Source of the DNA: Curvibacter sp. AEP1-3
GTDB lineage: Bacteria > Pseudomonadota > Gammaproteobacteria > Burkholderiales > Burkholderiaceae_C
Assembly (NCBI RefSeq): GCF_002163715.1
Contig: NZ_CP015698.1
Location: 2,394,200-2,458,199 of the forward strand
Length of the DNA: 64,000 bases
Reading direction: 5' to 3'
Shown: positions 2,812 through 38,379 of the stretch, piece after piece
Layout: each line of letters opens with the position of its first letter
Numbering within the stretch: position 1 is the stretch's first letter
Notes under the pieces: model-generated
The model's input: only the letters and a program-made list of their open reading frames with translations
Database searches by the model: none
Told to the model about the DNA's origin: nothing
Program-made: the position numbers and the translations under genes

Positions 2812-3837
2812 ATGAGCCAAAGCGACACCACCCGCGACTCCAGCACCGCCAACCCCACCGTGCGCGAAGCCCAATCGACCGCGGACTACAACCCATTGGC
2901 CAAGCAAAAAGCACAGGCCAAATTGGCGCGCATCCCGGTCAAGGTGCAGCAAGGTGAAGTGCTGAAAAAGCCGGACTGGATCCGCGTCAAAGCCGGTAGC
3001 CCGACCACCCGCTTCTACGAAATCAAGGAGACACTGCGGGCCAACAAGCTGGTTACCGTGTGCGAGGAAGCCAGCTGCCCTAACATTGGTGAATGCTTCG
3101 GCAAAGGCACAGCCACTTTCATGATCATGGGTGACAAGTGCACCCGCCGCTGCCCCTTCTGCGATGTGGGCCACGGCCGTCCCGACCCGCTGGATGTGAA
3201 CGAGCCCGACAACCTGGCCAAGACGATTGCCCAGCTCAAACTCAATTACGTGGTGATTACCAGCGTGGACCGCGACGACCTGCGCGACGGCGGTGCCGGC
3301 CACTTCGTGGAGTGCATCCGCAAAACGCGCGAACTCTCACCCAAGACGCAGATCGAGGTGCTGGTGCCTGACTTTCGCGGCCGCGACGACCGGGCGCTCG
3401 AAATTCTGAAGGCCGCGCCGCCCGATGTGATGAACCACAACCTGGAAACCATTCCCCGCCTCTACAAGGAAGCGCGCCCCGGGTCGGATTACCAATTTTC
3501 ACTGAACCTGCTCAAGAAGTTCAAGGCGCTGTTCCCCGACGTGCCCACCAAGAGCGGCTTGATGGTCGGCTTGGGCGAGACCGACGATGAAATCCTCGAA
3601 GTAATGCGCGACATGCGCGCCCACAACATCGAAATGCTGACCATCGGCCAGTACCTCGCCCCAAGCACCAGCCACCTGCCGGTGCGCCGCTATGTGCACC
3701 CCGACACCTTCAAGATGTTCGAGGACGAGGCCTACAAGATGGGCTTCAAGCACGCCGCGGTCGGTGCCATGGTGCGCTCCAGCTACCACGCGGACGTTCA
3801 AGCCGGTCACGCAATGAGTGCTGTGAACAATCAGTAG
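2812..3837 (+). CDS. lipA: Lipoyl synthase, C-terminus altered by transposon
   Basis: LipA is a radical-SAM enzyme that inserts two sulfurs into protein-bound octanoyl groups. Both iron-sulfur cluster motifs are present: the auxiliary cluster [12 protein letters not shown] and the radical-SAM cluster CTRRCPFC. The start is ATG 2812 after a short gap from lipB. The 3' end is unusual: codons up to GHAMSA are native, but a Tn7-like element begins inside the next codon (base 3822), so the protein now ends in VNNQ encoded by the transposon terminus. The original ending, APAV then TGA, is found 34.5 kb away at 38383-38397. All catalytic parts are intact, so the enzyme is probably still functional, with a tail one residue longer than before. 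Confidence 0.97.
3817..3821. repeat. 5-bp target site duplication, left copy
   Basis: AGTGC lies immediately before the transposon terminus TGTGAAC and is part of native lipA (codons Ser-Ala). Its partner is at 38380-38384. A 5-bp duplication is the hallmark of Tn7-type insertion. Confidence 0.93.
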
Positions 3838-3880
3838 AATAAGAGAAAAATTAGAAGTTAGTGAGAAAAATCAATAGAGA
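3822..3880. repeat. Transposon left end: terminal repeat and TnsB-site-like repeats
   Basis: The terminus TGTGAAC is followed by GAGAAAAATTAGAAGTTAG (3843-3861) and an overlapping second copy GAGAAAAATCAATAGAG (3863-3879). The first matches the inner repeat of the right end (GAGAAAAAGTGCAGAAGTTAG, minus strand). These are probably binding sites for the element's TnsB. The GTG start codon of the TnsE-like gene (3861) lies inside this array, so TnsB binding could also repress that gene. Confidence 0.8.
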
Positions 3881-5594
3881 TTTTTCGAATTCAGTTGGCG
3901 GAAACTACGAATCCTCCAATGGAACTCCAAGAATTTCGGTGTTTCCGCAGGACCAATCTCATTGGCGGATTGACTGGTTCGGCGACATTGCATTCCCCGA
4001 TAGATCGGTTCGCAGGAAGCAACCATCGGTTTTTTTGCACCTCTCGCGCCTTGCGGATGAGCGCTTCCGATCGGATCCGTCGGTCTTGCTGCACCCACAG
4101 TGCACCGGCCCAGCAAAGCTTCAAAGACGAATCTGGGTCTCGGTCGGCACCCTGGCACTGGTTCGAATCGGAGACATTTGGCACAAGGGCGGATTAGCAC
4201 TGCGTCCCGATTACGAATTGGAAGAGTTTGCGAGCCTTCAAGTTGACCCGGGGTCAACGGCCATTGTCAAAGCCGGCTTGAATCTCAATAACGAGGGTTT
4301 CCTGCTCCCCATTAGTGAGCATCCCTGGCACATCCAGTGCACGCAGTCCTACTGCTTGATGGTCCAGCTTCCCCATGACCGCAGACTGATCATCCCCTGC
4401 GTGGAGTTGGCCCGCTTTTACTTCGGGTCGTCCAGCGGACTGATTTCCCGGCTGTTCCTGCCGCCTCTGTTTCGTGATGCGCTGTTTTCCAGCGCCTCGC
4501 TGGATCCTTATTCCCGCAGGCTTCAAATTGATCTAGCAGACAAGATGTCTGGCGCCTCAGCCGCAGATATTGGTCGGATCGCCATGGACCCTATCGCTGC
4601 GCGGGCAGCGCGGATTGTCGGAAACTCTTGCCTCAGAGCATCTACTGCCGGACTGCCCATCTATCCACAAGCGCGCTTTCCCTTTGAAGGAAAGACGAAC
4701 CTGATTGCATCAGGCCGTTGGCTTTCCCATGGCGGAGTCCCCAAGTCGACCTTCTTGGTTTACAACCTGCGCTCCTGCTCACACCCGTTCCCATTCCGCT
4801 CGCTCCAGTACACCACTAAGGGGGCGCAGCCGCGCCCCAAACTCCCAAATCAGGCCCGAAGTCCAACAGAAGAACCCAGAATCCTGCGCTCGTCTGCACC
4901 TGAGGTTAAAAATCCGGCTTTGGTCGAGAAAGACGCTTCCAGCAAGCTCGCTGGCAAGACCAGGCAGGTCAGGGAATTAGCACGCTTCCCTGACCTGGAA
5001 CGGAAGTCCATCTGGCGAAGTATGCGGCTCATGGCAGACGAATCTGCCACTGAACATGTCAACTCCGGCGCTCCAACCATCGACTCCATGGCAGTTGGAG
5101 AGCCCGGTTCGGGCCGACGCGTGCGCCCGGTTGAGTTGTCTGTCGTTTCCGCAAAGGCATCTGGCAAGCAGGAGGTGATACCTCTGTTTTTGCAGGATAC
5201 GGTGGAAGACCTCAAGCAATTGAAAGGGTTGACCGTAGAACTCCTCACAGAAAGTCTAGAAGATGGCTGGACCGTACCCATCTCGGTGCTGGCTAACTCT
5301 GATGGCGAGGTGGCACCAGAACTGATGATCGACTGCCCAGAGCATGGTCTGCGCATGCGCAAGGCAGCTGTTTTTGCATTCAAACGTAAATCTGAGCATT
5401 TGTGCGCTGTCGTCATCGAGGCCAATCCACCCCATACCAAAATCATCCCCACCACTGGCCAAGATGAGAATGAAGTCTGGTTGACCCTGCGCTGCGCGGC
5501 CGTGGACTTCTCCAAGGCCGCACCCAGCGATACGCTTGATGCGCCACTCGCAGAGTTGATCTCCTGGGTGTTTGACGAAGAGGATCCAGTCTAA
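3861..5594 (+). CDS. TnsE-like protein of the transposon left end (remote similarity)
   Basis: A 577-residue protein with a GTG start placed inside the end repeats and read inward. By eye it follows the plan of Tn7 TnsE (about 540 residues): an N-terminal HWRIDWF segment, a central LIIPCVELARFYFG motif like the IP-x-LELAR segment of TnsE, a long low-complexity polar linker (about 320-440), and a C-terminal domain with RKAAVFAFKRKSEHLCAVV like the KAVGVQRNGSEFVLLEV region of TnsE. These comparisons are from memory of TnsE and are not an alignment score. In Tn7, TnsE directs insertion into DNA undergoing lagging-strand synthesis, including conjugating plasmids. Here the gene lies at the opposite end from tnsABC-tniQ, not beside it. 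If not TnsE, it is an unknown end-linked accessory protein. Confidence 0.55.
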   Translation: MRKINRDFSNSVGGNYESSNGTPRISVFPQDQSHWRIDWFGDIAFPDRSVRRKQPSVFLHLSRLADERFRSDPSVLLHPQCTGPAKLQRRIWVSVGTLALVRIGDIWHKGGLALRPDYELEEFASLQVDPGSTAIVKAGLNLNNEGFLLPISEHPWHIQCTQSYCLMVQLPHDRRLIIPCVELARFYFGSSSGLISRLFLPPLFRDALFSSASLDPYSRRLQIDLADKMSGASAADIGRIAMDPIAARAARIVGNSCLRASTAGLPIYPQARFPFEGKTNLIASGRWLSHGGVPKSTFLVYNLRSCSHPFPFRSLQYTTKGAQPRPKLPNQARSPTEEPRILRSSAPEVKNPALVEKDASSKLAGKTRQVRELARFPDLERKSIWRSMRLMADESATEHVNSGAPTIDSMAVGEPGSGRRVRPVELSVVSAKASGKQEVIPLFLQDTVEDLKQLKGLTVELLTESLEDGWTVPISVLANSDGEVAPELMIDCPEHGLRMRKAAVFAFKRKSEHLCAVVIEANPPHTKIIPTTGQDENEVWLTLRCAAVDFSKAAPSDTLDAPLAELISWVFDEEDPV

Positions 5595-5659
5595 AGCCGC
5601 AGGGCGTCGATTACCGCTGAAAGCTAACTGACCTCGGATGGAGTCTTGATCACCCGCCA

Positions 5660-6229
5660 TTATTGAACCTTGCGCAGTAAGGCCTTGACCCTTGCAAAGC
5701 CTTCCGGGGTCTCTGCGACTTTTTCTGGTGCAAGCCCATCCAGTTTGTCGTGAGGGGTGTCTAACCAACGGCGGGCTTTCAGCAAGTCGCCCAACGTCTT
5801 ACATGCCAAGTTGTCCAATTCGGCAAGCCGCTCGTAGTCTGGGCTGCCAAACTCCCGCCCAACGGGCGCCATCCTGTCCCAATCGGCCATGTCATCAACC
5901 GGCGGGCCCTGGCGCATTTGCGCACTTGAAACCTCAATTCCTGGAGAAACCTTGAACATGCCCTTGAGTTCCAGCCCTGATTTGTCGCGTGCTGGGGCCA
6001 AGCGCAGCCAAGCCTCAAAAGCGGCTTGCAGGTCGAGCCAGAGTTCTGCTGATGTCCCAAAGGCGCGTGCAAGCTTGGTTGCCAAACTGGTGTCGATGTT
6101 GGCTGTACCAGTGATCAAATTGGATAAATGCTCCTGACCTATCCCAATTTTGGCAGCAGCATCAGCCAAACTCATTCCACCAAGGTACTGGGCCAGGACT
6201 GCGCCCGGTTTCGGAGGATCCGACGTCAC
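5660..6229 (-). CDS. higA: HigA-family antitoxin, XRE-type DNA-binding
   Basis: A 189-residue protein whose first 90 residues read as the HigA addiction-antidote family: PGAVLAQYLGGMSLADAAAKIG, helix-turn-helix near residues 20-65, then the typical FGTSAELWLDLQAAFE ending of that domain. The remaining 100 residues are an extension of unknown role. HigA proteins bind their own promoter and neutralise an RNase toxin HigB. The start is GTG and overlaps the TGA of an upstream open frame (GTGA), which implies translational coupling, yet no intact toxin gene is present upstream. It is probably an orphan antitoxin. Confidence 0.8.
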   Translation of the reverse strand: MTSDPPKPGAVLAQYLGGMSLADAAAKIGIGQEHLSNLITGTANIDTSLATKLARAFGTSAELWLDLQAAFEAWLRLAPARDKSGLELKGMFKVSPGIEVSSAQMRQGPPVDDMADWDRMAPVGREFGSPDYERLAELDNLACKTLGDLLKARRWLDTPHDKLDGLAPEKVAETPEGFARVKALLRKVQ

Positions 6230-6306
6230 TTTTGCTTCTCCTGAAGATCACCATCGAACAAATAATAGCCCTCCTTGATTTGCCTGTGTACCGCATGGAT
6301 TGAGCC
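6226..6306 (-). pseudogene. Remnant of the gene once upstream of higA
   Basis: The minus-strand frame that ends at 6226-6228 encodes about 25 plausible codons (IHAVHRQIKEGYYLFDGDLQ near its end), but an in-frame stop lies close upstream and no start with a ribosome site is seen. Its TGA overlaps the GTG of the HigA gene. It is likely the 3' end of a lost partner gene; I cannot tell whether that was a HigB toxin. Confidence 0.35.
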
Positions 6307-6418
6307 AAATCTCTACACATGGAGTTGTCGCGAAGACGCTTACAAATCACGGCCAAACGAGGTTGTGCTTATGCATACCCCTTAACTTCACGAAGCAGCC
6401 ACCTAGACTGGACGTTTT

Positions 6419-6910
6419 ATGGATACCCACCAACAGCCGGTTTGGCAGGCTTACCCAGTACAAGTCCTATTCATCGATTTTGATGGTGTTCTGCACCCGG
6501 AGTTCTGCCATGAATCTCAGCACTTTATGCATAGGGACAGCTTTGAGGCGATTCTTCGTGCGTTCCCGAAGATGGATGTCGTGATTTCCAGCACCTGGCG
6601 CTTGAAACGCCAATTGCCTGAACTCAAAGCGTTGTTTTCTGAAGATGTGGCAGAAAGGGTGATTGGTTTAACACCACTGTACGCAGAACTAGAGAACATT
6701 CCAGACCGGCTGGTTGGCTATGAGCGGGAAGCCGAATGCTTGGCTTGGCTTCAACGCCATGACCGAGCCTCCCAGTCATGGCTAGCACTGGATGACCGAT
6801 CATGGAACTTCAGGCCGTTCAACCGCAACGTATTTCTTTTGGACGGCCATGTGGGGCTTGATGCAAATGCGGCAGGTGGATTGCTTGCCCGCTTGTCCCA
6901 AAGCTGCTGA
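6419..6910 (+). CDS. HAD-family phosphatase of the RNA-repair (SAK) type
   Basis: A 163-residue protein carrying HAD motif I, FIDFDGVLHPEF (about residues 18-29, with both catalytic aspartates), motif II in VISSTWRLKR, and a late acidic motif LALDDRSWNF. The arrangement matches the small HAD domain found in Swiss-army-knife RNA repair proteins and as stand-alone genes in mobile elements, where it is predicted to act as a polynucleotide 3' phosphatase. It stands alone between the higA region and a strong hairpin terminator (6960-7012). Function beyond phosphatase chemistry is inferred from the family. Confidence 0.75.
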   Translation: MDTHQQPVWQAYPVQVLFIDFDGVLHPEFCHESQHFMHRDSFEAILRAFPKMDVVISSTWRLKRQLPELKALFSEDVAERVIGLTPLYAELENIPDRLVGYEREAECLAWLQRHDRASQSWLALDDRSWNFRPFNRNVFLLDGHVGLDANAAGGLLARLSQSC

Positions 6911-6959
6911 AGCGCACATAAGACTCCAGAACCAAATACGTTAAAATCACCGACAACAT

Positions 6960-7012
6960 AGCCGCCACGCCTCTGCTTCAGCACGCGCAACCTTGGCGGC
7001 TTTTTATTTTTT
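6960..7012 (+). terminator. Long-loop hairpin terminator after the HAD gene
   Basis: AGCCGCC (6960-6966) pairs with GGCGGCT (6995-7001) around a 28-base loop that contains its own short stem, and is followed by TTTTTATTTTTT. A TTAAAAT box lies just upstream at about 6941-6947, so this could also be a free-standing small RNA of about 60 nucleotides. Confidence 0.6.
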
Positions 7013-7766
7013 CCTGCCTCCGGCCAGCGCCATTGTTTTCGTAACTTGCGCTGGCTGCATATCATTTTGGCTGTGTGTCGCTGGCCAGGGCTGGGAGCAC
7101 TGCCTGATTGCATCGGCAACATGCAAAAGGCCGGATTGATGTCGATGCCGATCTAAGTTTTACGCCCCCGCCCCCCCTAACAGTCCTCTTACGAATTTTT
7201 TTCCAAGGATCGCACAGCGTTCTAAGGACGCTTAGTGTTCATACGGTTTTCAGAGGTCTTTCATGGCATAGGCATCGGTGAACGTAGCCAAAGAAGTGCA
7301 CCATGAATTGCAGGGCTGGGATGCCTGGCAATCAGAAAATTGCTGGCAAGGCGGACAATCCACCAGCATGGCGAAACGCCAAGATACATGCAGCTAGAAC
7401 TTACAAATCCTCGAATGCACTGAAAAATCGCTCGAAATTCGGGTGAAAAGCACAACCGCATTTCACAAAGCGATATTTGACACTTTTTTCCTTGTCAAAT
7501 ACCACACTATTCTTCGTTGGTGTTTTGCAACATACGACACTAAGGTTGTCGTGACATCCTCGCCCAGCTTGGGTTTCAAGAGGGTTATCCTGTTTATATG
7601 AACAGGCCCTCCCCTCTTGACATAGCCTTAAACCCGAATAGGGAGATCAGTCTTAGGTGTTGCGAAAATCGTCTGGCGTATACATAATTGTCTTGTAAGC
7701 ATGTTTCCGGTAGTGGAAGTTAGCTATCAAAGATATAGCAAACAAGGGAGACAGTAGCGAGTCAGA
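7013..7766. other. Non-coding stretch with no recognised gene
   Basis: I see no convincing gene on either strand. Short open frames occur (for example minus 7261-7461) but lack ribosome sites and protein-like composition. The stretch contains a C-rich run near 7165-7177 and is likely eroded cargo DNA. Its last 200 bases may be the leader of the small genes that follow. Confidence 0.5.
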
Positions 7767-7804
7767 CCATCAGCTGAAAGGCAAAAGCCACATCTGATGG
7801 TTTT
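7767..7804 (+). terminator. Attenuator-like hairpin before small gene 7830
   Basis: CCATCAG (7767-7773) pairs with CTGATGG (7794-7800), enclosing a smaller GGCAAAAGCC hairpin, and is followed by TTTTCTCGTTT. It sits 25 bases before an ATG, so it may be a transcription attenuator in a leader, or the end of a small upstream RNA. Confidence 0.5.
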
Positions 7805-7829
7805 CTCGTTTCTGAATAAAAGGGTAGCA

Positions 7830-8204
7830 ATGAGTAACAGTACGAACTTTTTTGACCGCGATGATGTCAAAGTAAAAGTTGAGCAATTGTGGGCAGCAGT
7901 TTTCGAGAGTAGCGGCAAGGTTCTTGAACAGCACACGAAATTTGGATTTGATGGCGTTGCAATGGCCAAAGACCCATCACTTGCAGATCGGGTAACAAAC
8001 CTCCAAATATTAGGGGCGGTGATTGATGTCTTGCTAAAGCCGAATTCGACATTGGGCGATCTGGAGTATGAGCAACAACGCCAGCTCTTGAATGCAAGAG
8101 CACAGATCACAACTATGGAACAGTTGGCTGCTGCGATGCAAGCGAAGAATGAAGCTGATTATCAAAGAGCCGTTGAGGCACTAGATAGACAAGCGGTGAT
8201 GTAA
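7830..8204 (+). CDS. Small alpha-helical protein of unknown function
   Basis: From ATG 7830 the product is 124 residues, begins MSNSTNFFDRDDVKVKVEQL, and is rich in charged and helix-forming residues with no membrane segment or cysteine. I do not recognise it. An upstream in-frame ATG (7797) falls within the hairpin tail and is less likely. A second small gene follows 21 bases after the stop with a strong ribosome site, and a good terminator closes the pair, so the two form a bicistronic unit. Confidence 0.6.
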   Translation: MSNSTNFFDRDDVKVKVEQLWAAVFESSGKVLEQHTKFGFDGVAMAKDPSLADRVTNLQILGAVIDVLLKPNSTLGDLEYEQQRQLLNARAQITTMEQLAAAMQAKNEADYQRAVEALDRQAVM

Positions 8205-8225
8205 TTTAATAGCTAGGAGGTGATC

Positions 8226-8387
8226 ATGAAAGATCTTAATTTCAATATTTACGCCCTCGCTGCGCCTTCCACGCCTAGCGAGTACATGGCATTGCTTGAT
8301 GAAGCTCTACGCATGGCTAACGAGCTAAACGAGCAGATCGACTGCCAAACAACTTTTCTTGAAGTGCTGCACGAAGCAAGCGTGTAA
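8226..8387 (+). CDS. 53-residue protein of unknown function
   Basis: This small frame begins MKDLNFNIYALAAPSTPSEY and has the best ribosome site in the area (AGGAGGTGATC just before ATG 8226). The product is acidic and helical (ALLDEALRMANELNEQ). It follows the 124-residue gene by 21 bases and ends 24 bases before a rho-independent terminator. Two tightly linked small genes could be a toxin-antitoxin or phage-type pair, but nothing in the sequences proves this. Confidence 0.6.
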   Translation: MKDLNFNIYALAAPSTPSEYMALLDEALRMANELNEQIDCQTTFLEVLHEASV

Positions 8388-8411
8388 CACGTCCACACCC
8401 GATGCATAAAG

Positions 8412-8434
8412 AACCCGCTTTGGCGGGTTTTTTA
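8412..8434 (+). terminator. Rho-independent terminator
   Basis: ACCCGC-TTTG-GCGGGT followed by TTTTTTATT, directly after the 53-residue gene; it ends the bicistronic unit at 7830-8387. Confidence 0.85.
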
Positions 8435-8621
8435 TTGCCCCATTGAAAATGGACCGACCACCTCGGGTGGAATGATGGGCTAGCTGCGATGTACCCATTT
8501 TCAGTAGCAGTTGGGTTCGAGTGTTGGCGCTGATGGAGTCTTGACAGTGCGTGCCGATCCAATTTTGATAGGGGGCTTGTAGCCAGACTTTGTTAGTCCA
8601 ACTGTGGATAACTATAGCCCC

Positions 8622-9437
8622 TTACGTGCTGGCCACCTCCTGACTGATCGTGGTTTTGCGAGTCAACTCTCTGGATCTAATCTTCCCTTTGGCCTCTGTG
8701 GAGCTGTGCCTGAATCGATAGGACTCGTTACCCGTCTCGACGATATGGCAGTGGTGGGTGAGCCGGTCCAACAATGCCGTGGTCATCTTTGCATCCCCGA
8801 ATACGGCAGACCATTCCGCAAATGTCAGATTCGTAGTGATCAGTACGCTGGTGTGTTCATAGAGTTTGGACAGTAGATGAAACAGCATTGCACCTCCCGC
8901 TTGGCTGAATGGCAGGTAGCCCAGCTCATCCAGAACGACCAAGTCCATGCGCATCAAACTCATGGCGATGCGACCTGGATTGCCCTTGGCTTTCTCCTGC
9001 TCTAACGCATTGACCAGATCCACTGTCGAGTAGAACCGTACACGCTTGGAATGGTGTGTCAGACCGTTGATGCCCAATGCCGTTGCCAAATGAGTTTTGC
9101 CGGTACCAGGCCCACCGATCAGGACAACGTTTTGAGCATCCTCTGTAAAGCTCAGATCAGCCAGTTTCTTGATCAATACCTTGTCCACTTGCGAAACCTC
9201 GAAGTCAAAGCCTGCAAGGTCCCGGTGGATTGGGAAGCGTGCCGCTTTCATTTGATGGGCAATGGAGCGCATGTGCCTGTCCACATCTTCGGCCTGGAGC
9301 AAGTGCTCAGTCAACCAGCGTGAGCTCTGAATTGTTGCTCCGCCATCTTGCTCCATGAGGTCAGCCCAGGCATTGGCCATTCCGCCTAAGCGCAGTGCCT
9401 TGAGCTCACTTTGCACATCTCGTTGGGACTCAGACAT
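8622..9437 (-). CDS. istB: IS21-family helper ATPase IstB
   Basis: A DnaC/IstB-type AAA ATPase of 271 residues that assists IS21 transposition by target DNA handling. Walker A is [11 protein letters not shown], Walker B is [13 protein letters not shown], and sensor residues follow in [11 protein letters not shown]. The start ATG 9437 gives [20 protein letters not shown], the usual IstB beginning. It overlaps the istA 3' end by 8 bases, as in intact IS21 operons. The protein is intact although its transposase partner is broken. Confidence 0.92.
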
Positions 9438-9848
9438 GGATAGCTCCTTGATCATCGTTATGGGTTGGGCGTAGGCGGTCGTACCGCGCGGTATCTGCTG
9501 TGGGCAGGTGAGTGAGCTGCAATGAGGTCTGTGCGAATTCCGGTAAGGACGGCGCATTAAGTCGCGCCAGTACATTGCGCACATGCTCAACGCTGACACT
9601 GCCATTGGGCGTGGCTCCTTCGAGCACCAGATCTACTGCTACCAACACAGCATCCAGGCCAGCCTGCGGAACAGTGGCCAGCACCTGAGCCATCGTGCGA
9701 TCGCCTCCGGGGTGACGCAGGAGGGATTTGCGCAAGCGCTGTAAAGGCTCTGGCAGATCTAAGAACGGTGCGCCATTGCGCAATGCTCCGGGCTTACGCT
9801 GCACCAATTCGATGTAGTGCTGCCAGTCGTAGGTCGTCTGGCCACTGC
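9430..9848 (-). pseudogene. istA: IS21-family transposase IstA, C-terminal fragment
   Basis: Only about the last 139 codons remain, reading TTYDWQHYIELVQRKPGAL onward, a typical IstA C-terminal region after the DDE catalytic domain. The upstream part, with all catalytic residues, is replaced by the IS3-family element whose end is at 9849. Confidence 0.85.
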
Positions 9849-9913
9849 GACGTCCCCCCATAATTGAGTAGCAGTTGAGCTTGGAGTCCAATCCCATAGA
9901 CAGGAGATTGGAC

Positions 9914-10177
9914 GTGAAAAAGAGATTTACGGAAGAACAGATCATTGGCTTCCTGCGCGAAGCCGAAGCGGGCCTGGCGGTAGCCGAGCTGTGCCGCCGG
10001 CACGGCTTCTCAGAGGCCAGCTATTACCTGTGGCGCAGCAAGTTTGGCGGCATGAACGTGTCAGATGCCAAGCGCCTCAAGGAGCTGGAAGCGGAGAACG
10101 GGCGGCTCAAGCGGCTATTGGCAGAGGCGATGCTGGAGAACGAGGTAACGAAAGAAGCCTTGAGAAAAAAGTGGTGA
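9914..10177 (+). CDS. IS3-family OrfA (helix-turn-helix subunit)
   Basis: An 87-residue protein from a GTG start, reading KKRFTEEQIIGFLREAEAG, then the helix-turn-helix of IS3-family OrfA (VAELCRRHGFSEASYYLWRS) and a leucine-zipper-like LKELEAENGRLKRLLAEAML. It binds the element's ends. The stop overlaps the orfB frame (GTGGTGA at 10171-10177); a fused OrfAB would arise by frameshifting in the AAAAAA tract just before it. Confidence 0.9.
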   Translation: MKKRFTEEQIIGFLREAEAGLAVAELCRRHGFSEASYYLWRSKFGGMNVSDAKRLKELEAENGRLKRLLAEAMLENEVTKEALRKKW

Positions 10178-11034: not shown

Positions 11035-11229
11035 AACTGGGGGGACGTCGGATGCACTGAGGTGGCCGATCAAGTTGCGGCTACTCGGCAGGAAAGTTAA
11101 ATTTATTTGTATACGCGATATGTCCTAGACACATGTCAAAAAATGTATGCTGCACTGATGTACGAATGCATTTAGCATCTGGGGTGCAATCACTTACATA
11201 CAAACTTTAGCCATTCACAGCACATCTCA

Positions 11230-12066: not shown

Positions 12067-12189
12067 TACCCCACAAGCGGTGACAAGGCTCACGTCAAAT
12101 TAATGCAATTGAGTGCCTACTATAGAAATTAGGAGTTTACTTTCTGAAAAACATCTATTTACTTGTTAAAACACTAGGCGCCTAGAAAA

Positions 12190-12210
12190 GGGGCCCGTCC
12201 AGCGAGCCCC
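12190..12210 (+). terminator. Possible terminator after the IclR gene
   Basis: GGGGC (12190-12194) pairs with GCCCC (12206-12210) and is followed by TATTTAACC; the T-run is weak. A TAGGCGCCTA palindrome lies just upstream. Confidence 0.4.
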
Positions 12211-28669: not shown

Positions 28670-28671
28670 GA

Positions 28672-29088: not shown

Positions 29089-29100
29089 CAGGGAATAGAA

Positions 29101-29367: not shown

Positions 29368-29400
29368 TGTCAGTGACCATACATATTCATTAGGATCGCC

Positions 29401-30315: not shown

Positions 30316-30321
30316 AAGGCG

Positions 30322-31233
30322 ATGGAGATGCTTAGTAATACCGGTATACAAAAATCAGAAAGCCTTCGAATTATTAAGATTCGTGCGGCACTTGTTTATA
30401 TAGCGTCGATGGGGATTTTCTTTGTCCCCTTCGACTGGTCACTAGTGTGGCTCACATTGCTAACGTTCAGCTTCCGAACCTTTGGGTGGGAGGCGGGACA
30501 TCATCGATATTTCTCTCATAGGAGCTTCAAAACCTCCCGAGCCTTTCAATTAATACTAGCGTGTTTGGGGGCATCATCTGGGCACAAAGGCCCAATTTGG
30601 TGGGCGACATTGCACAGAGCGCATCATAAGCATGCTGATATGCCACTGGATCCGCATAGTCCTGTGCAAAAAGGACGAATGTACGCATACATCGGCTGGG
30701 TTTTGGATTCGGCAAATGCAGATACCGATCTAGACGCCGCGAAAGATCTATCTAAGTTTCCTGAGCTGGTGTGGGTTAATAAATATCACTATTTGTTCCC
30801 TTATATCTTACTCATCGGAGTCTTTTCAATTGGCCAGTTTTCTGACATTTTGGGGCCCAAAGTTAATGGATTTTCAGCAGTAATTTGGGCTTTTTTCTTC
30901 AGCACGTTCTTGTCGCTGCAAGGAGGTTTCTTTGTCAACGTGTTTACGCATGGGCCAATACCCAAGTTCATAGGCTATAGAACATTTGAAACGCGCGATA
31001 CAACGTCCAACAATTGGCTGCTATGTTTATTGAGCTTCGGAGCGTCTTGGCATAACAACCATCATCGATATATGAATTCAGCTAGGGCTGGGTTTTATTG
31101 GTGGGAATTGGATATGACCTATCTTGTATTGAGAGTACTTTCGTTTTTTCACATTGTTTGGGATTTGCACGAAGTGCCAGCTGCCGTTCTGCTCGAAGGA
31201 AAATCCGGTGCAATGACCATTGTCAACAAGTAA
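30322..31233 (+). CDS. Membrane-bound fatty-acyl desaturase (SCD type)
   Basis: A 303-residue integral membrane desaturase with three histidine boxes: HHRYFSH, HRAHHKH and HNNHH, plus four hydrophobic membrane segments (about 18-50, 70-90, 155-180, 190-215). This is the stearoyl-CoA/acyl-lipid desaturase family that needs an external electron donor. With the soluble diiron desaturase in the same operon it makes a second oxidation likely, either another double bond or, by analogy with JamB-type enzymes, a triple bond. It starts 6 bases after the hydrolase gene. Confidence 0.9.
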   Translation: MEMLSNTGIQKSESLRIIKIRAALVYIASMGIFFVPFDWSLVWLTLLTFSFRTFGWEAGHHRYFSHRSFKTSRAFQLILACLGASSGHKGPIWWATLHRAHHKHADMPLDPHSPVQKGRMYAYIGWVLDSANADTDLDAAKDLSKFPELVWVNKYHYLFPYILLIGVFSIGQFSDILGPKVNGFSAVIWAFFFSTFLSLQGGFFVNVFTHGPIPKFIGYRTFETRDTTSNNWLLCLLSFGASWHNNHHRYMNSARAGFYWWELDMTYLVLRVLSFFHIVWDLHEVPAAVLLEGKSGAMTIVNK

Positions 31234-31288
31234 GCGAGCCTGCAAATATCATCCGCAGTTAATTCTTGCATGGACCTAGAAGGAAAAA

Positions 31289-32686
31289 ATGAATACGTTC
31301 ATCGGTGCTGCAATTCAGTTCTTTACCATGATTCGCAAAATGCGAGAACATAAGAGGAATGAACACTTAACAAAACATTCGCTGCAAGTATTGCAACTAA
31401 AGAAGTTTAGAAAACTAGTTAAGCATGCTTACAAATACTCCCCATATTATCGAGAGTTGATTGAAAAGCGATCAATTAATGTAAATACTTGCATTCCATC
31501 CGACTTCCCAATTTTGACTAAAGAGTTGGTTGTAGAGAATTTTGATCGGATATCAACTGAACGGAGCATAAATAAAAAATCTATATCTGATTTTTTGGCC
31601 AATTCGAAAAATCCCGCAGATCTCTTTCTCGGGAAATACTATATCGTCCATACTTCCGGTTCAAATGGACAAGTCGCTTACTTTCCTTTTTCTCGTCGAG
31701 ACTGGGCTTGCGGCTTTTCTCATATAAGTAGGACTAGAAAAGTACCCGTGCCTTTCTCGCCAACGAAAATTGCCTGCTACCTTGCAGCTGATGGGCATTA
31801 CGCAGGCGTCTCCTGGGCAACGACAGGGAAGCAATTCATCAACAAAATGTTTTTCAATGTTTTAACTCTGGAGATTAATTCCCCATTGGATGAAACCATT
31901 AAAAAATTAAATGATTTTCAGCCTGAACTGTTGACAGGCTACCCCTCAAGTCTCGCCGTGCTTGCTCAAAAACAGCGAGAAGGCATCTTACGCATTTCTC
32001 CACGAAACGTTGAATTAGGGGGCGAGCCTTCAACCCCCGAGGACGCGGAGAATTTAAGAGCAGCCTTTCGTAGCGGCATCGTAAATTATTATGGAAGTAC
32101 GGAATTTATGGTGATGGGGGCCTCTCCACTCAACACCTCGTCAATTAAATTGTATGAAGACGATCTGCATTTTGAATTAAATGATGACCATTCCATTGTC
32201 ACTTCTCTTTTTAACCATACGTTCCCCCTAATTCGATATCGTATGGGAGATGTGCTGATGCCGGAGAATGCTGTTGAAGAGGAGCACCCCTATCAAATGA
32301 TACGAGGCATCATTGGTCGATCCGAATCAGCTCCTCAATTTATAAATGAGGATGGAGCTAATGATTTTATAAGTCCTCATACGATTAATGAAATATTCGT
32401 TCCTGGAGTTGCGCGTTTTCAAATGCGTGTGCAGACTTCAGAGTCTTTCAGTTTTTTGGTGTGCATGGAAAAAGGGTTGAGTTCGACAGAGATTGCCAAC
32501 GCAATAGATTTGTTAAAATCCCGAATTCGGCAAATTCTTCAAAAGAAGAAGATGAGTAACGTGTACTTTGAGATACACCATGTCGATGAACTCTTGGTGG
32601 ATCCCGCAACCAGAAAATTTCGCCTAATTGTCAATGAGGTTAATGCCGAGTCGCAGCACCTTCAATTGCAAGCCATGCGAGCGTAA
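31289..32686 (+). CDS. PaaK/CapK-like adenylate-forming enzyme
   Basis: A 465-residue member of the phenylacetate-CoA ligase/CapK branch of adenylating enzymes: KHAYKYSPYYRELIEK at the N-terminus, the nucleotide loop IVHTSGSNGQVAYF, GGEPSTPEDAENLR, a YYGSTEFMVMG motif, and FPLIRYRMGDVLMP. It activates a carboxylic acid as acyl-adenylate and joins it to CoA, to the operon's ACP, or to an amine/alcohol acceptor. It is read with the other lipid genes after a 55-base gap. The substrate is unknown; loading or final condensation of the modified fatty acid are the likely steps. Confidence 0.8.
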   Translation: MNTFIGAAIQFFTMIRKMREHKRNEHLTKHSLQVLQLKKFRKLVKHAYKYSPYYRELIEKRSINVNTCIPSDFPILTKELVVENFDRISTERSINKKSISDFLANSKNPADLFLGKYYIVHTSGSNGQVAYFPFSRRDWACGFSHISRTRKVPVPFSPTKIACYLAADGHYAGVSWATTGKQFINKMFFNVLTLEINSPLDETIKKLNDFQPELLTGYPSSLAVLAQKQREGILRISPRNVELGGEPSTPEDAENLRAAFRSGIVNYYGSTEFMVMGASPLNTSSIKLYEDDLHFELNDDHSIVTSLFNHTFPLIRYRMGDVLMPENAVEEEHPYQMIRGIIGRSESAPQFINEDGANDFISPHTINEIFVPGVARFQMRVQTSESFSFLVCMEKGLSSTEIANAIDLLKSRIRQILQKKKMSNVYFEIHHVDELLVDPATRKFRLIVNEVNAESQHLQLQAMRA

Positions 32687-32742
32687 ACACTAGTGGATCG
32701 GAAACGAAGTGTGCCCATTAGAAATTTCAATTCCTCAAGATA

Positions 32743-33666
32743 ATGGGATCGGTTAAAGCATCCTTTCAAAGCCGCATGAATAATCTTCGCTCACTGAACT
32801 CGCTACGTCTTTCTGAAATCGACACTCTCGCATTTGCTGGCGGTGGAAATCGTTGTTGGTGGCAAGGTGGTGCTCTTACGCATCTGCTCAGCAGGGGGAT
32901 GAGCCTTCCCAGGCAATTGGTTGGAACAAGTGCGGGGGCGGCGGTAGCTACCTCATGTGTGACTGCTGACCCTGAATTTGCATTGAATGCCTGTATTGAT
33001 CTTTACGCCACTAATCAAAGTATTTTTAATTGGACGGCCCTTTCTCGGGGGAAATTTCAATTTGCACATCAGCATATATATCCGGCATGGATAGAGTCCT
33101 TTCTGAATCCGAAAACATTCTCTGCATTGGAAAAATCTGGAACGAAAATCAAAGTGGGGGTGACTCGGCCGGCACCTTGGCTAGGAATGGCCGGCTCCGT
33201 TGCATTTGGAACGCTTGCATATTTGATCGATAAGCATATTTGGCACAGCATCCATCCTCGGTTGCCAAAGCTATTTGGATTGCGGCAGGCTTTCATTGAT
33301 CTGGACCAATGCTCAACCGTTTCAGACGCGCATTCTGTATTGTGCGCGGCGGCGGCGGCGCCCCCTATCTTGCAATCACGATTTGTTAGTAATTTCAGAG
33401 CGATTGACGGTGGATACACGGACAATGCGCCGATACATAAGCAAGATCAGGATGAACAACGGCGAACCTTGGTACTTTTGACGCGCAATTATCCAAACCT
33501 ACCTCAAATGTTTAATTGGAGAGGGCGGAACTACTGGCAGCCTAGCAAACGTGTTCCCGTTTCTACTTGGGATTGCACAACGCATACGACGGTTCGAGAC
33601 GCTTTCGATCTTGGAAAGATGGATGCCATAAAGGCGTTGGATACAGGGATTTTGAAGATTGCGTAA
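32743..33666 (+). CDS. Patatin-like phospholipase
   Basis: A 307-residue patatin-fold enzyme. The glycine-rich oxyanion segment is FAGGGNRCWWQGGAL, the nucleophile motif is GTSAGAAV, and the catalytic aspartate is in IDGGYTDNAP. It hydrolyses acyl ester bonds in phospholipids, so it could release fatty acids as pathway substrate or act on the product. It is the last gene of the operon, 100 bases before the tniQ stop on the opposite strand. Confidence 0.88.
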   Translation: MGSVKASFQSRMNNLRSLNSLRLSEIDTLAFAGGGNRCWWQGGALTHLLSRGMSLPRQLVGTSAGAAVATSCVTADPEFALNACIDLYATNQSIFNWTALSRGKFQFAHQHIYPAWIESFLNPKTFSALEKSGTKIKVGVTRPAPWLGMAGSVAFGTLAYLIDKHIWHSIHPRLPKLFGLRQAFIDLDQCSTVSDAHSVLCAAAAAPPILQSRFVSNFRAIDGGYTDNAPIHKQDQDEQRRTLVLLTRNYPNLPQMFNWRGRNYWQPSKRVPVSTWDCTTHTTVRDAFDLGKMDAIKALDTGILKIA

Positions 33667-33765: not shown

Positions 33766-34773
33766 TCATCTTGCACGCCAATTGGCAAAACTCTCAACTA
33801 TTTCGAGATAGAACTGCGGTGCTCTGTCAAAGTCTTTGAACATGTGGTTGTAGCGCACACCTTTTGCCCGCCATGCACTTCGCAACCGAGGCTCCAAGTC
33901 CATCATCAACCAGCCGATCAGTTGGATGACATGGTGCCGCTCCGCAAGCAACCGTGATTCAAAGCCAAGTTTTCCATTTACCAGCTCTATTGGCGGCACA
34001 GCGAGCTCACGGCAGACATGGTCGTGAAGCTTCACTGTTGAACAGCGCGACAGTAACAAAAGCGCCAGTTGTCGCATCACGCTGAGATTGTCTAAATCTG
34101 TGGCGCTCGGGGTGCCGGACATCACCGCTGCAGAGATCCCAGACAGCCAATCCATCACGATGGGCTCATAGGATTCAACCGAATCCACCAAGTCACTGGC
34201 CAGACTTGCCCCGCAGGCAAAACAGTCGGAAATCAACTCCCGATGCTGCCCTTGCGGATTGCCCATATCCCCCCGGTGAAAAGCCACCCCCGCTCCACAC
34301 GCGACACAACGATCCCGCAACATGCACTGGTGGCGAGAGCAGGTGGTTATAAAAGCCACACGCCACTCTTTGCGAAAGTACGGAACGAGATCTTCAAAAA
34401 GACACTGCGGGCAGTACTGCATCCCGAAGCCCTGCCGCGTCCTATGAAACATCTGCAGCGTGGTTATCCATTGCAAAGACCCGGATGTCCTGAAGGACGG
34501 ATACAAACACCCCTCGTAACTGCGCAGCGTGGTCCCACGAGCCTGCTCAATCGGAGTTCCGGTTCGGTCACTGAGTACATCAACGAGCCAATCGGGGCCC
34601 AGGCGGTCGATGTCCCTGTTCCAGACTTGTAATTGGTTTCCAAAAATCAGATTGCAAAAAGTCTGAACCCGCAATCCGTGGCCCCTGGCCAGGCGCACAA
34701 GCCAAGAGGACAAAAGCTCATCTGGGAGAGGCTTGTATCGAATGGGCCATAACGGTGATGTCATGCCCTGCAT
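33766..34773 (-). CDS. tniQ: TniQ-family target-selection protein
   Basis: A 335-residue TniQ protein. The N-terminal TniQ motif is PLPDELLSSWLVRLARGHGL and the zinc-binding knuckles are CPQCLFEDLVPYF, CSRHQCMLRDRCVAC and CFACGASL. In Tn7-like elements such proteins bridge a chosen target to TnsC. It is the only TniQ in the element, so it is the best candidate for recognising the lipA 3' end; the region after the zinc fingers (about 215-335) is helical and may bind DNA. It starts 5 bases after the tnsC stop and is the last gene of tnsABC-tniQ. Confidence 0.9.
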   Translation of the reverse strand: MQGMTSPLWPIRYKPLPDELLSSWLVRLARGHGLRVQTFCNLIFGNQLQVWNRDIDRLGPDWLVDVLSDRTGTPIEQARGTTLRSYEGCLYPSFRTSGSLQWITTLQMFHRTRQGFGMQYCPQCLFEDLVPYFRKEWRVAFITTCSRHQCMLRDRCVACGAGVAFHRGDMGNPQGQHRELISDCFACGASLASDLVDSVESYEPIVMDWLSGISAAVMSGTPSATDLDNLSVMRQLALLLLSRCSTVKLHDHVCRELAVPPIELVNGKLGFESRLLAERHHVIQLIGWLMMDLEPRLRSAWRAKGVRYNHMFKDFDRAPQFYLEIVESFANWRAR

Positions 34774-34778
34774 GCCCG

Positions 34779-35681
34779 TTAGAACCGTTGATGCTCTTTG
34801 CGCCTGGATGGGGGCAGCCAGCGCAGCGCACCGATTTGTTCTAGGGCAATTTCCTCGGCCCCCGTCCGGATGGCATCAATCGCCAACGCCTTGAAGAGAT
34901 CACACATGTCGCCCAACGTCCCCTCGCTGCGGTCATGGATGGCTTGCATTTTTTCGGGCGACTTGAGGTCAGAGGCTTTCTTAAGTGGTGTGCGTTTCTC
35001 CAAGGTAGCCAGCAAGCTACCAAAGTGCACATCGGCCTTCCACAGTGGTAGTACTTCGGGCGTGAACCGACTAGACATCTGGGGATCGGTATTGAATGCG
35101 TTGTACGCATCCTCGATGCCCGCTGCCACGATAACCACCTTGGTTTCATTGCCAAGGCTCTTCAGCGCATTCCTGAAGTCTCTTTGCTTATTCATGCTCC
35201 CGGCGATCAGGTGATGGATTTCATCAATGATCAACATCTTGACGCCCATCTGCTTGAACAGCAGCTTGACCTGGGAGTTCTTTTCCTGGGGAGAACTCGT
35301 GGGTTTATAAGGTGCCATCAATGCATCCAAGATCCGTGTGTAAAACGCGGACACATCTGGCGTAGGCGGGGATTCCACCATCACCACAGGACAGGTCGTC
35401 ACCTCGGCTGTCGCATCCAGGTCAACCGGATGTAGTTCCAGGAAGCGCTCCAAAATGGACGTCTTACCGTTGAACGAAGGTGCTACCAGCAACATATTGG
35501 GCATGCGCGTTATGCGTGGATATTCCAGCAGCTCTTCCAGGCGCGCCAGTATCTCTTTGGCCTTGCCGTAACCCAACCAAGTGCCGGATTGAATCGACTT
35601 GATGCGCACGGCATCCGCGGCGTCTACCAGTGCCCTGGCTGCATCGTTGAGATGCGGATAGGCTTGCGTCGCATCAGTCAT
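34779..35681 (-). CDS. tnsC: TnsC/TniB-type AAA ATPase
   Basis: A 300-residue AAA ATPase that couples target choice to transposase activation. Walker A reads VAPSFNGKTSILERF, Walker B reads MLIIDEIHHLIAGS, and a sensor region follows in KVVIVAAGIEDAYNAF. It is shorter than Tn7 TnsC and nearer the TniB type. Its start overlaps the tnsB stop by 4 bases and tniQ follows 5 bases after its stop, so the four genes are one operon. Confidence 0.92.
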   Translation of the reverse strand: MTDATQAYPHLNDAARALVDAADAVRIKSIQSGTWLGYGKAKEILARLEELLEYPRITRMPNMLLVAPSFNGKTSILERFLELHPVDLDATAEVTTCPVVMVESPPTPDVSAFYTRILDALMAPYKPTSSPQEKNSQVKLLFKQMGVKMLIIDEIHHLIAGSMNKQRDFRNALKSLGNETKVVIVAAGIEDAYNAFNTDPQMSSRFTPEVLPLWKADVHFGSLLATLEKRTPLKKASDLKSPEKMQAIHDRSEGTLGDMCDLFKALAIDAIRTGAEEIALEQIGALRWLPPSRRKEHQRF

Positions 35682-37591
35682 TCGTCATCCAACGCTTGCA
35701 CGTCATCGGGGTTGTAGCCGTGGACCGCTGGCGGCGGAGTCGCAGATTTCGCGGGTGCTGACACATTGGGCATGGTTTTCTTCTTCTCAGCCCTGGTCTT
35801 CTCATGCTCAGTCCGTCGTTGTGCTTCGCGACGGGCTACCTTGGTCTTGCCGGCCGCATCCTCTTCCAAAGCGCGCTGCTCATTGATGATGGCAAAGACT
35901 GCCTTTTCGTTTTCTTTGGAAATGCCGCGCTTTTCAGCCAACCCCTGCGCATTGCGCAGCTCCCAAATGCTGACCGGCGGCAAACTGCTATCGCGGTAGG
36001 GGATCGTCACGTATCGCTTTGAAAGTTCGTCGTAAAAGTAGAGCTGACTGATGTCGCGAGGGTCGCGATGGAATTTGAATTTGCGCTTGTGCTTGGGAAA
36101 CTCCGGGTCCATCACGCCCATCCAGGCCCGCAACACATCGTGGTAGTAATGGACGTCATCAATGACGACGCCATAGGCCTGAATGGTGCGTTCGATGAAT
36201 GGAGTAAAGTTGATTCTGAGAAGTTCTTCGTCAGTGCGTCTGGCGGGCAAGCCACGACCAGGTTTGTCTTTGGTTCCCAGCAACCCTTGCCGCCACTTCT
36301 CCAACGGAGGCATGCCAATACCACCATGATCCTCCAAGTGGTACCGAGCAAAAAACAGCACAAGCCACTTTTCGATCTCATCCATGGTCATGCAGGCATT
36401 GCCCTCAGCGTCGTACTCGTAGAGTTCTTCCGGACCCGAAAATGTTGCCCCTTTCAAAGTCTTGAGTCCCTCAGTGACGGTCCCCATGAGGCGTTCAATG
36501 TGGGCTCCATAGCGCGGCTTCTTGACCGGGCGTAGATGGATATCGATGTCATAAACCCTGCAAGCCGACTTCAGCATGTCACCTCGAAACTCGCGCGCGT
36601 TGTCCATGTGAAGAATACCCATGACACCCCACATGTTCCAATCCACGCTAACTATGCTCCTTCGGCGCAACCAAGCGTCCTTGGGAAGAATCGCGTGGCT
36701 GATGCACATGCCAGCTGACATTGCAGAAGGAGCCTCCAGCGAAAGGTACATGCCCAAACACACCCTGCTGAACACATCGATTGCCAAGGTGATCCAAGCT
36801 CGTTTGATGGACTTGCGGTGCTTGTCGTCCACGATCATCACGGGCAGCAAGGTGTGATCGATCTGTACAATGCTTAACGGCCAATCAGCGTCAGGAATAA
36901 CGCCCTTGATCGGTTGATGTTTGGCGTGGGCCACGGCGGCGCCATAGCGCAATCGCGTCCTTTCTGGCCCGTTGGTCTGATTCAATCTGGCGCGTATCGT
37001 ATTGACCGCAGGTAGCTTGAGTTCGGCGTTGGAGCACAAGCGCCGGATCTCTTTGATGGTCGCAGCGATAGACACGTGCTGGTCGGTGTCGTGAAACTCT
37101 GCCAAGGTCTTTGCAATGATGGCCTCCACCTCCGGTGCAATACGCGGCTTTGCTTTGCCGCCGCGATTGCGGTACATCGGCAGGAGAGACGAGAGCGTGC
37201 CGGTAGCGCGATACGCGGTGACCCAGCGGTACACCGTGGCCCTGCTGACTTGGGCTTCTGCCGCAATCTCGTCGTACAGCGCGTTAGATCGCTGGTAGCG
37301 ACTCAGCAACAAGGGCTCAATCCACTCGCGTCTTTTCTGGGCGATGGCCCAGTCGAACTCGGTGACGTCAAGGAGCTCCGGCTCCACAGTTTTTGCCGCA
37401 GGCTTCTCCGCTACAAGCGTGGGTGGCCCGATATCACCCATTTTGAGGAGCACTTTGTTGCCAGTCTCAATGTCTCTGGCAAGAACAAGATTGACGTCCG
37501 CCAGATTCAAGATGACGTACTCACGCCCACCATTGGTGACTGTTGCCCCTTTGGTAACCCAATACTGGGTGGGGGTGGTGCGGTCGTTCAT
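35678..37591 (-). CDS. tnsB: TnsB/TniA-type DDE transposase
   Basis: A 637-residue transposase. Two helix-turn-helix regions are in the first 200 residues (QVSRATVYRWVTAYRATGTL). The DDE core follows: Asp in IVQIDHTLLPVM, Asp in LHMDNAREFRGD, and Glu in YGAHIERLMGT. A Mu-type C-terminal region and a basic, charged tail (AQRRTEHEKTRAEKKKTM) complete it. It cuts the 3' ends, joins them to the target and binds the end repeats. Overlap with tnsA (upstream) and tnsC (downstream) is 4 bases each. Confidence 0.94.
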   Translation of the reverse strand: MNDRTTPTQYWVTKGATVTNGGREYVILNLADVNLVLARDIETGNKVLLKMGDIGPPTLVAEKPAAKTVEPELLDVTEFDWAIAQKRREWIEPLLLSRYQRSNALYDEIAAEAQVSRATVYRWVTAYRATGTLSSLLPMYRNRGGKAKPRIAPEVEAIIAKTLAEFHDTDQHVSIAATIKEIRRLCSNAELKLPAVNTIRARLNQTNGPERTRLRYGAAVAHAKHQPIKGVIPDADWPLSIVQIDHTLLPVMIVDDKHRKSIKRAWITLAIDVFSRVCLGMYLSLEAPSAMSAGMCISHAILPKDAWLRRRSIVSVDWNMWGVMGILHMDNAREFRGDMLKSACRVYDIDIHLRPVKKPRYGAHIERLMGTVTEGLKTLKGATFSGPEELYEYDAEGNACMTMDEIEKWLVLFFARYHLEDHGGIGMPPLEKWRQGLLGTKDKPGRGLPARRTDEELLRINFTPFIERTIQAYGVVIDDVHYYHDVLRAWMGVMDPEFPKHKRKFKFHRDPRDISQLYFYDELSKRYVTIPYRDSSLPPVSIWELRNAQGLAEKRGISKENEKAVFAIINEQRALEEDAAGKTKVARREAQRRTEHEKTRAEKKKTMPNVSAPAKSATPPPAVHGYNPDDVQALDDE

Positions 37592-38250
37592 AGCGCAGCT
37601 CCTGGCAATTGCAACTCGACATCACCGCCGAAAGGAGTATCTAAGTCAGTATGCAAGCGCCGCTGGAAAAGCATGCTCCAGATTACCGGCAACCAGTGAA
37701 GTCGTTCGTTGTCGGTCAACGCCAGAGTGGCCAGGATGCGCTCGGAGGACGAAACCCCATGGTTGTCAGCCATGGCTTGCAACACACGCATGCAATCCGT
37801 TTCCAATGGGTCAACGTTGCGGTACTCCCGCAAGAACTTGATGTTGGCCAACCGAGGGAGGCGGATTTCCGTTTCATCGACCGTCCGGAACTCCCACCCG
37901 AGGGACTCGGCATAGACCTGCGCTGCAGCAAATTTGGGTGCGTAATCCGCGGCGTGTTTCTTCAGAAAGTCGCTGCGCTTCACTTCTGCGAGTAGCGGTT
38001 TCCGGTTCTGGCCCGACTCGGGATCCGGTCGGTATTTCACGAGGACGTCGGGAACATAGCCCCTCGGTACCCCCTTCACTGGAATACGAACGGGTTGCAC
38101 CTCGAATGATTCCACAGCATCATCAAAGTCCAGAGCCAGCAGGTAGTCTTTCTCAAGAAGAGACTCAAAAGGGTCCATTACCTCGCTTTTACGACTTGAG
38201 TAGGCCCCGGTGACGAACAGGTGGTTTTTGGGGATCTTGCGAACAGGCAT
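37588..38250 (-). CDS. tnsA: TnsA endonuclease
   Basis: A 220-residue TnsA. The restriction-enzyme-like catalytic residues are visible as Glu in DPFESLLEKDYL, Asp in GYVPDVLVKYR and Glu-x-Lys in LLAEVKRSDFL; the C-terminal part (about 150-220) is the TnsC-contacting domain. TnsA cuts the 5' strands so the element moves by cut-and-paste and does not form cointegrates. It is the first gene, 40 bases inside the right-end repeats, so TnsB bound there may repress the operon. Confidence 0.93.
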   Translation of the reverse strand: MPVRKIPKNHLFVTGAYSSRKSEVMDPFESLLEKDYLLALDFDDAVESFEVQPVRIPVKGVPRGYVPDVLVKYRPDPESGQNRKPLLAEVKRSDFLKKHAADYAPKFAAAQVYAESLGWEFRTVDETEIRLPRLANIKFLREYRNVDPLETDCMRVLQAMADNHGVSSSERILATLALTDNERLHWLPVIWSMLFQRRLHTDLDTPFGGDVELQLPGAAL

Positions 38251-38290
38251 GTGACCAGTCTAGCGATTTGGGAGACATTTCTAATCCAGT

Positions 38291-38379
38291 CTCGCTAACT
38301 TCTGCACTTTTTCTCATTATCTATAGATAAAATCTACAAATAACTAACCTTGTTTCTCAGAATCGGGTGACGGTTCACA
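38291..38379. repeat. Transposon right end: terminal repeat and TnsB-site-like repeats
   Basis: Read on the minus strand from 38379 this contains the terminus TGTGAAC, a first repeat GAGAAACAAGGTTAG (38344-38358) and a second, longer one GAGAAAAAGTGCAGAAGTTAG (within 38291-38315). The repeats share GAGAAA-A and GTTAG with the left end. They lie directly upstream of tnsA (start 38250) and so overlap its promoter region, as in Tn7 where TnsB represses its own operon. Confidence 0.8.

Follow-up and report, generated by a model that had tools for sequence, protein, structure and literature searches.

The 64,000-nucleotide stretch of Curvibacter sp. AEP1-3 DNA analysed in this work (hereafter the window) carries a Tn7-like element inserted in the 3' end of lipA, the lipoyl synthase gene, with a TnsE-like gene at its left end (the left-end gene) and the tnsABC-tniQ genes at its right end. 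Taken together, the evidence makes it probable that this is a Tn7-like transposon moving by cut-and-paste, with the 3' end of lipA as its home in the chromosome. Its boundaries are precise, a 5-bp duplication flanks it, an empty site exists in the same genus, and in most of the elements compared the left terminus replaces the tail and stop codon of LipA.

An earlier reading of the window (the original prediction) had delimited the element to the coordinates listed in the table, and these hold to the base. The left terminus starts with TGTGAACAATCAGTAG at position 3822 and the right terminus stops with GGTTCACA at position 38379. On recomputation, the predicted TGTGAAC termini again matched at 20 of 29 bases, for which the binomial tail is 8e-7 at p = 0.25 and 1.7e-5 at p = 0.30. 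Inner repeats had also been claimed for both ends, and TGAGAAAAA (left position 41, right position 64) and AGAAGTTAG (left position 32, right position 77) are each present on the two sides. The claimed perfect AGTGC duplication was found in both copies, and an uninterrupted lipA, which had been named as a check, was found in the same-genus genome G217 (L016) with a single AGTGC at the exact insertion point. The flanks of the window, joined at one AGTGC, align without gaps to this allele through 240 bases. Judged by TniQ and by the left-end gene, the element is present in one copy in its genome. TGT...ACA ends with a 5-bp duplication, as in Tn7-like elements, occur here and also in further elements, and profiles identify the expected TnsA, TnsB, TnsC AAA regulator, and TniQ. 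At the sequence level, the empty site and the precise duplication are consistent with cut-and-paste mobility.

The predicted position in the lipA 3' end also stands, with the lipA frame closed by the left terminus of the element. The insertion lies inside lipA, which is single-copy in this genome, and not behind it: the ending ...Ser-Ala-Pro-Ala-Val-stop becomes ...Ser-Ala-Val-Asn-Asn-Gln-stop, the last bases being those of the terminus, and joining the flanks restores the native tail ...AGT GCA CCC GCG GTC TGA.

Related elements were sought in a family sample of 399 genomes, with TniQ matches taken at 1e-20, and in an order sample of 399 genomes. The 13 TniQ-positive family genomes and four same-genus genomes were searched for lipA and the left-end gene, and named genomes were scanned with the left-end protein, the best 80 of 99 loci being considered. 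TniQ matches occurred in 13 of the 399 family genomes. In eight of these (own genome included) TniQ scores at least 294 bits, and the left-end gene lies behind the lipA 3' end in all eight, at 0.1-0.2 kb in six, about 2 kb in G099, and about 6 kb in G239 (left terminus still touching lipA in the last two). In G169 and G351, TniQ and lipA are on separate contigs, and the link is the same duplication sequence on both contigs. The remaining five genomes, with a best TniQ of at most 196 bits, have it on another contig than lipA or 390 kb away (G121). In the order sample, 20 genomes gave 23 TniQ matches in all; the eight scoring at least 386 bits follow lipA at a distance of about 4-46 kb, arranged as expected, and the fifteen scoring at most 290 bits are not in that place, except the 450-amino-acid (aa) TniQ of G635. 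In G574, lipA is on the same contig as TniQ, 41 kb off and in the wrong order. With the G635 row excepted, TniQ scores split the sites in both samples. The relatives of highest TniQ score in the family sample are all at lipA in the same place. Neither outcome named as refuting the original prediction therefore occurred, since relatives are not confined to unrelated positions and the empty allele has its single AGTGC.

Among the best 80 named loci, 56 hold lipA, which is within 1.5 kb of the left-end gene in 53. The lipA-bearing hosts belong to Burkholderiales, Neisseriales, Rhodocyclaceae, and Gammaproteobacteria, and include Rhodoferax, Massilia, Herbaspirillum, Variovorax, Rhodocyclaceae, Candidatus Accumulibacter, Chromobacterium, Aquitalea, Formivibrio, Methylomonas, Rheinheimera, and Alishewanella; looked-up taxonomy places Massilia in Burkholderiales, Chromobacterium in Neisseriales, and Alishewanella in Gammaproteobacteria. 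The other 24 loci include L120, which is in a comM-type gene, and L086, L089, L107, and L135, which have the left end of the family and no lipA in reach (contig start, insertion sequence (IS), or other neighbour). A phylum-wide sample (398 genomes) gave four TniQ matches at 1e-70, all from the order of the window and none new. Among 72,556 plasmids, TniQ matched 283 records, all below 60% identity (30-34% among the 25 matches listed), and the TnsE-like protein had no match at E 1e-5; this plasmid collection leans to clinical strains.

These data leave hardly any doubt that lipA is a true attachment site of these elements. Betaproteobacteria make up most of the named hosts, as might be expected if a single ancient insertion at lipA had been inherited with the host instead of being targeted repeatedly. 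However, carriers are scattered (8 of 399 family genomes), neither TniQ nor the TnsE-like protein has a match in the four further genomes of the genus, one of which aligns as a clean empty site, the cargo compared is not shared, the duplications are intact in several hosts, and G367 has two tandem left ends at lipA. A single inherited insertion is therefore very improbable, and repeated targeting of lipA is preferred. The suggestion of the original prediction that lipA may be a new attachment site is upheld insofar as the site is recurrent and was not found reported for Tn7-like elements in the literature searched, with supplements, most preprints, and most subscription papers outside its scope. 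By term look-up, lipA, lipoyl, and lipoate occur nowhere in the main texts of PMC10293859, PMC8649781, and PMC11406308, which are key papers on how Tn7-like elements choose their sites. Three papers considered as possible lipA reports (PMC4781885, PMC5658596, and PMC2900268) proved unrelated in the passages considered, which deal with a housekeeping-gene list or a lipase.

The insertion point was compared across hosts after placing the lipA end by motif in 62 sources, of which three repeat records (L068, L084, and L088, equal to G239, G351, and G169) were dropped to leave 59; L109 and L117 hold lipA and were missed by the placing motif. Left ends were placed by an end profile, eight of them being set by hand after checking by eye (L111 among these is atypical). 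Counted from the first base of the Tyr codon in the LipA motif R-S-S-Y-H-A-D, the left end starts at 38 nt in 35 of the 59 records, at 35-44 nt in 58, and at 57 nt in one. It faces lipA in 59/59 records and in 8/8 of the TniQ-led family sample. Insertion at lipA thus occurs at nearly the same point and in the same orientation in many hosts. The LipA stop codon comes from the left end in 49 of the 59 records and is native in 10; in the 49, the element as a rule also provides a short new LipA C-terminus. Stops in all three frames occur within 36 nt of the left end in 46 of the 59 records; in 500 composition-keeping shuffles the mean was 15.8 and the maximum 27, a comparison that is not a probability because the records share ancestry. 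Replacement of the LipA tail is very likely a kept feature of these elements.

Right ends were searched within 600 bp of tnsA in 15 elements. The 5-mer of the left side was found behind ACA in eight, and behind TCA in G190, in which tnsB is split, and G411 (TCA was looked for afterwards). No match to the duplication was seen within this distance in G058, L189, L196, and L066. In G367 the 5-mer lies farther out from tnsA and is directly followed by a second left end. At this place (L055-L058, joined coordinate 61485) the duplication CTATT stands directly ahead of that left end and of another TnsE-like gene, which is broken, and this arrangement implies that the lipA site was used twice. In G411 (L191-L192), the left-side duplication GTAGT lies behind tnsA and is followed by a left-end-like stretch, perhaps another second, tandem use of the lipA site.

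Gene trees were used to ask which protein picks lipA. The TniQ tree, built with our careful method, has 47 rows, of which 25 were counted as lipA: 24 were seen at lipA, and L135 was presumed to belong there although its contig begins at the left end. L096 was omitted from the trees as a copy of L095, and L195 (G635), behind lipA, was labelled non-lipA. A single clade (support 98/100) takes in the 25 lipA rows; two Ralstonia rows are nested within it on a branch of 1.91 changes per column, and L195 lies outside it. For the 28 elements with all four genes, trees made by a quick method, which gave long-branch warnings, contain 2 site-label changes for TniQ, 3 for TnsB, 3 for TnsC, and 5 for the TnsE-like protein; the changes forced by strong branches number 2, 2, 2, and 4. 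Since the TniQ clade follows lipA and TnsE does not, the short TniQ is favoured as the selector. G169 strengthens this case: in this genome, which is at lipA, TnsB is only 45%, TnsC 43%, and TniQ 59% identical to that of the window. A PDB sequence search with the TniQ profile returned two TniQ chains. Eleven TniQ columns mark the lipA clade at the cut-offs applied, of which Q37, N52, Y109, A300, and N309 are changed in Ralstonia; Q37, N52, A300, and N309 are kept in at least 92% of lipA-site TniQs and in at most 27% of the others (all columns were chosen after looking). If TniQ is the selector, these last four are candidates for its specificity.

The left-end gene was weighed as a second candidate. 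It is probably a remote TnsE of the Tn6022 kind, the C-terminal part of its product seeming to resemble the TnsE C-terminal domain; a PDB sequence search with its profile returned nothing sensible. That this protein selects lipA in place of TniQ, or together with it like TniQ and TnsF at comM, might be suspected from its being the only other non-core gene in all eleven compact lipA elements, at the lipA-side end, and from an N-terminal part that has barely been compared with known folds. Yet its tree departs from the sites more than that of TniQ, with 6 site-label changes (4 forced) among 78 proteins in addition to the comparison of the 28 elements. In lipA elements from Gammaproteobacteria and Neisseriales the counterpart of this protein is only 24-27% identical, whereas that of a non-lipA element reaches 45% along part of its sequence. 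A comM-type gene harbours a relative whose TnsE-like gene is 36% identical, and the TnsE C-terminal domain family is known for plasmid targeting. Selection of lipA by the TnsE-like protein is accordingly quite unlikely. It is scarcely more likely, and still improbable, that a host factor or guide RNA brings TniQ to lipA, the DNA not being read by TniQ itself: the element has no array-like direct repeats (three two-copy families in 3700-38500, minimum length 20, spacing up to 300), there is no Rfam match at gathering in window positions 2500-39500, and the compact elements have no further gene in common.

In the interval from the TnsE-like gene to tniQ, no frame of at least 100 aa is shared by all eleven compact elements that were compared. 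Partly recurring sets comprise ParB-like and methylase-like frames in L136, L138, L144, and L188 (named by eye) and a large frame in L069, L142, and L189. The element of Massilia frigida, for which no right end was recognised, contains a single additional frame of some size (462 aa) within its 2.1-kb gap. In the window, 16943-17947, with a weak tyrosine-recombinase match (7.4e-5, far below cut-off), was considered as a TnsF-like selector and rejected, because none of the seven closest relatives has a match to it in the stretches fetched and nothing is present throughout the compact elements. We are inclined to think that TniQ alone, with no other selector encoded by the element, reads lipA. 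We give about even chances to the fuller proposal, in which a short TniQ (about 340 residues, lacking a TnsD-type extension, TnsF, and a CRISPR partner) reads the codons of the lipA motif by itself and steers insertion into a central-metabolism gene, and the terminus is shaped as a substitute LipA C-terminus with all-frame stops.

Several observations weigh against this picture. TniQ is ahead of TnsB and TnsC by one change and level with them on the forced count, so the trees are better at excluding TnsE than at picking out TniQ. The TniQ of the window is short (335 aa), and short TniQs usually act with a further selector, according to Faure et al. (2023). Three Ralstonia loci (L095, L096, and L098) carry a TniQ of this clade but lack lipA within the locus; no ends could be made out in them by eye, and they are possibly a retargeted or fixed relative. 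The 450-aa TniQ of G635 (131 bits) lies directly behind lipA, and relabelling it as lipA adds a change. Many non-lipA rows have no assigned site, several being on a contig other than that of lipA, and draft assemblies may hide a link. The left end of L107 is beside another gene, and in G058 another left end, with its own TnsE-like gene, lies elsewhere than at lipA. On the side of precision, 11 of the 59 left ends, mostly from Gammaproteobacteria and Neisseriales, score below 12 bits on the end profile, which makes their placing less sure, and in 7 of the 15 right ends, ACA with the duplication is absent from the 600 bp searched beside tnsA. The 59 records are mutually related and were mostly found via the left-end gene, so that an opposite orientation would be missed.

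Two of these genomes have further features. Around one lipA of G635 (L195 and L196) there are several Tn7-like TniQ genes, which suggests stacked elements of different kinds. The second terminus of G058 (L064, G058:C1:3644001-3658000) adjoins an open frame that is reverse transcriptase-like by eye.

The features of the window are listed below. Pfam matches agree with the predicted gene order tnsA-tnsB-tnsC-tniQ at the right end, tnsA outermost and all on the minus strand. TnsB scores 26.6 bits for Mu-transpos_C against a cut-off of 21.7, has an IS481-type NCBIfam match below cut-off, and is 45-65% identical to near full-length relatives.

Table. Coordinates of the Tn7-like element of the window, its ends, its genes, and the interrupted lipA.
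Feature	Position	Strand	Remarks
lipA (lipoyl synthase)	2812..3837	+	Pfam Radical_SAM, LIAS_N; last codons replaced by left end (V-N-N-Q-stop)
Target-site duplication AGTGC, left copy	3817..3821
Tn7-like element	3822..38379		34,558 bp; left end at lipA, right end at tnsA; termini, duplication, core genes
Left terminal 29 bp	3822..3850	+	20/29 bases as in right terminus
Left inner repeat AGAAGTTAGTGAGAAA	3853..3868	+	presumed TnsB site
TnsE-like protein	3861..5594	+	577 aa; GTG start within left end
Cargo	5660..33666		Xre/MbcA-like HTH, HAD_SAK_2, IS genes, cNMP-EAL protein, methyltransferase-like protein, CARF/ORC-CDC6-like/PRTase-CE conflict system, LuxR-DUF4902-LuxI, lipid-modifying gene cluster
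TniQ	33766..34773	-	335 aa; PF06527, 5.5e-31; favoured lipA selector
TnsC (TniB-type AAA ATPase)	34779..35681	-	PF05621, 2e-67
TnsB transposase	35678..37591	-	Mu-transpos_C and HTH Pfam matches
TnsA endonuclease	37588..38250	-	PF08722 and PF08721 above cut-off
Right inner repeat AGAAGTTAGCGAGACT	38288..38303	-	presumed TnsB site
Right terminal 29 bp	38351..38379	-	20/29 bases as in left terminus
Target-site duplication AGTGC, right copy	38380..38384
Displaced native lipA end (ACCCGCGGTCTGA)	38385..38397	+	L016 aligned across join

Among seven cargo proteins compared, the HAD protein alone recurs, in one of the seven closest relatives (G239; fetched stretches). The conflict-system genes at 16943-23008 comprise CARF, ORC-CDC6-like, and PRTase-CE genes, a type II methyltransferase-like protein, and the weak tyrosine recombinase. 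At 24002-33666, LuxI-DUF4902-LuxR genes stand beside plus-strand genes for desaturases, a CMAS-type methyltransferase, a thioesterase, a hydrolase, an AMP-ligase, and a patatin, possibly specifying a lipid product under quorum control as transposon cargo. We take the DUF4902 label to denote RsaM.

A mechanism can be proposed from these data. The short TniQ would recognise the conserved DNA coding for the C-terminal R-S-S-Y-H-A-D of LipA and, bound to lipA, would recruit TnsC, which would position the ends paired by TnsA and TnsB some 38 bp behind the Tyr codon, the left one first. With stops usually present in all frames, the left terminus would then close the lipA frame, and the insertion should for that reason be harmless. 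The TnsE-like protein is assumed to act in a second route that does not depend on the site, as in Tn7 and Tn6022.

The elements at lipA represent a widely used and sharply defined chromosomal home for Tn7-like elements in a lipoate-synthesis gene of Beta- and Gammaproteobacteria. They resemble Tn7 (glmS, TnsABCDE) in TnsABC, a TniQ-domain protein, TGT...ACA ends, the 5-bp duplication, fixed orientation, and the use of the 3' end of a conserved metabolic gene as a landing mark. However, Tn7 inserts right end first at glmS, whereas the left end faces the target gene in lipA elements; the insertion is mostly within the coding end and not behind the gene, and the 335-aa TniQ lacks a long TnsD-like C-terminal extension. 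In contrast to type I-B and I-F CRISPR-associated transposons (CAST), the element of the window shows no CRISPR-like array, nor do the compact elements share a further gene. In layout they are close to the Tn6022/AbaR backbone family (PMC10293859), in which the tnsABC-tniQ genes occupy one end and a remote TnsE lies towards the left end; the left-end gene of the window has the right size for such a TnsE. L120 illustrates a comM-borne relative: its comM-type gene (6894-7853; YifB family, TIGR00368), whose match extends up to position 282-284 out of about 500 (499) and no further, is cut at residue 282 beside the TnsE-like gene that is 36% identical to that of the window. Unlike in Tn6022, no gene in operon stands behind tniQ in the window (32743-33666 runs the opposite way), and since none is common to the compact elements either, no TnsF was seen, no TnsF profile having been run. 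The site is lipA and not comM, and while comM is interrupted, lipA keeps its conserved part and gains a new stop. A terminus that closes the frame of the target gene thus differs both from landing behind it, as Tn7 does, and from breaking it, as Tn6022 does. The lipA set, the comM-borne relative, and the Ralstonia exception form a natural series on the part of TniQ that sets target choice, a question bearing on Tn7-like elements and on CAST engineering alike.

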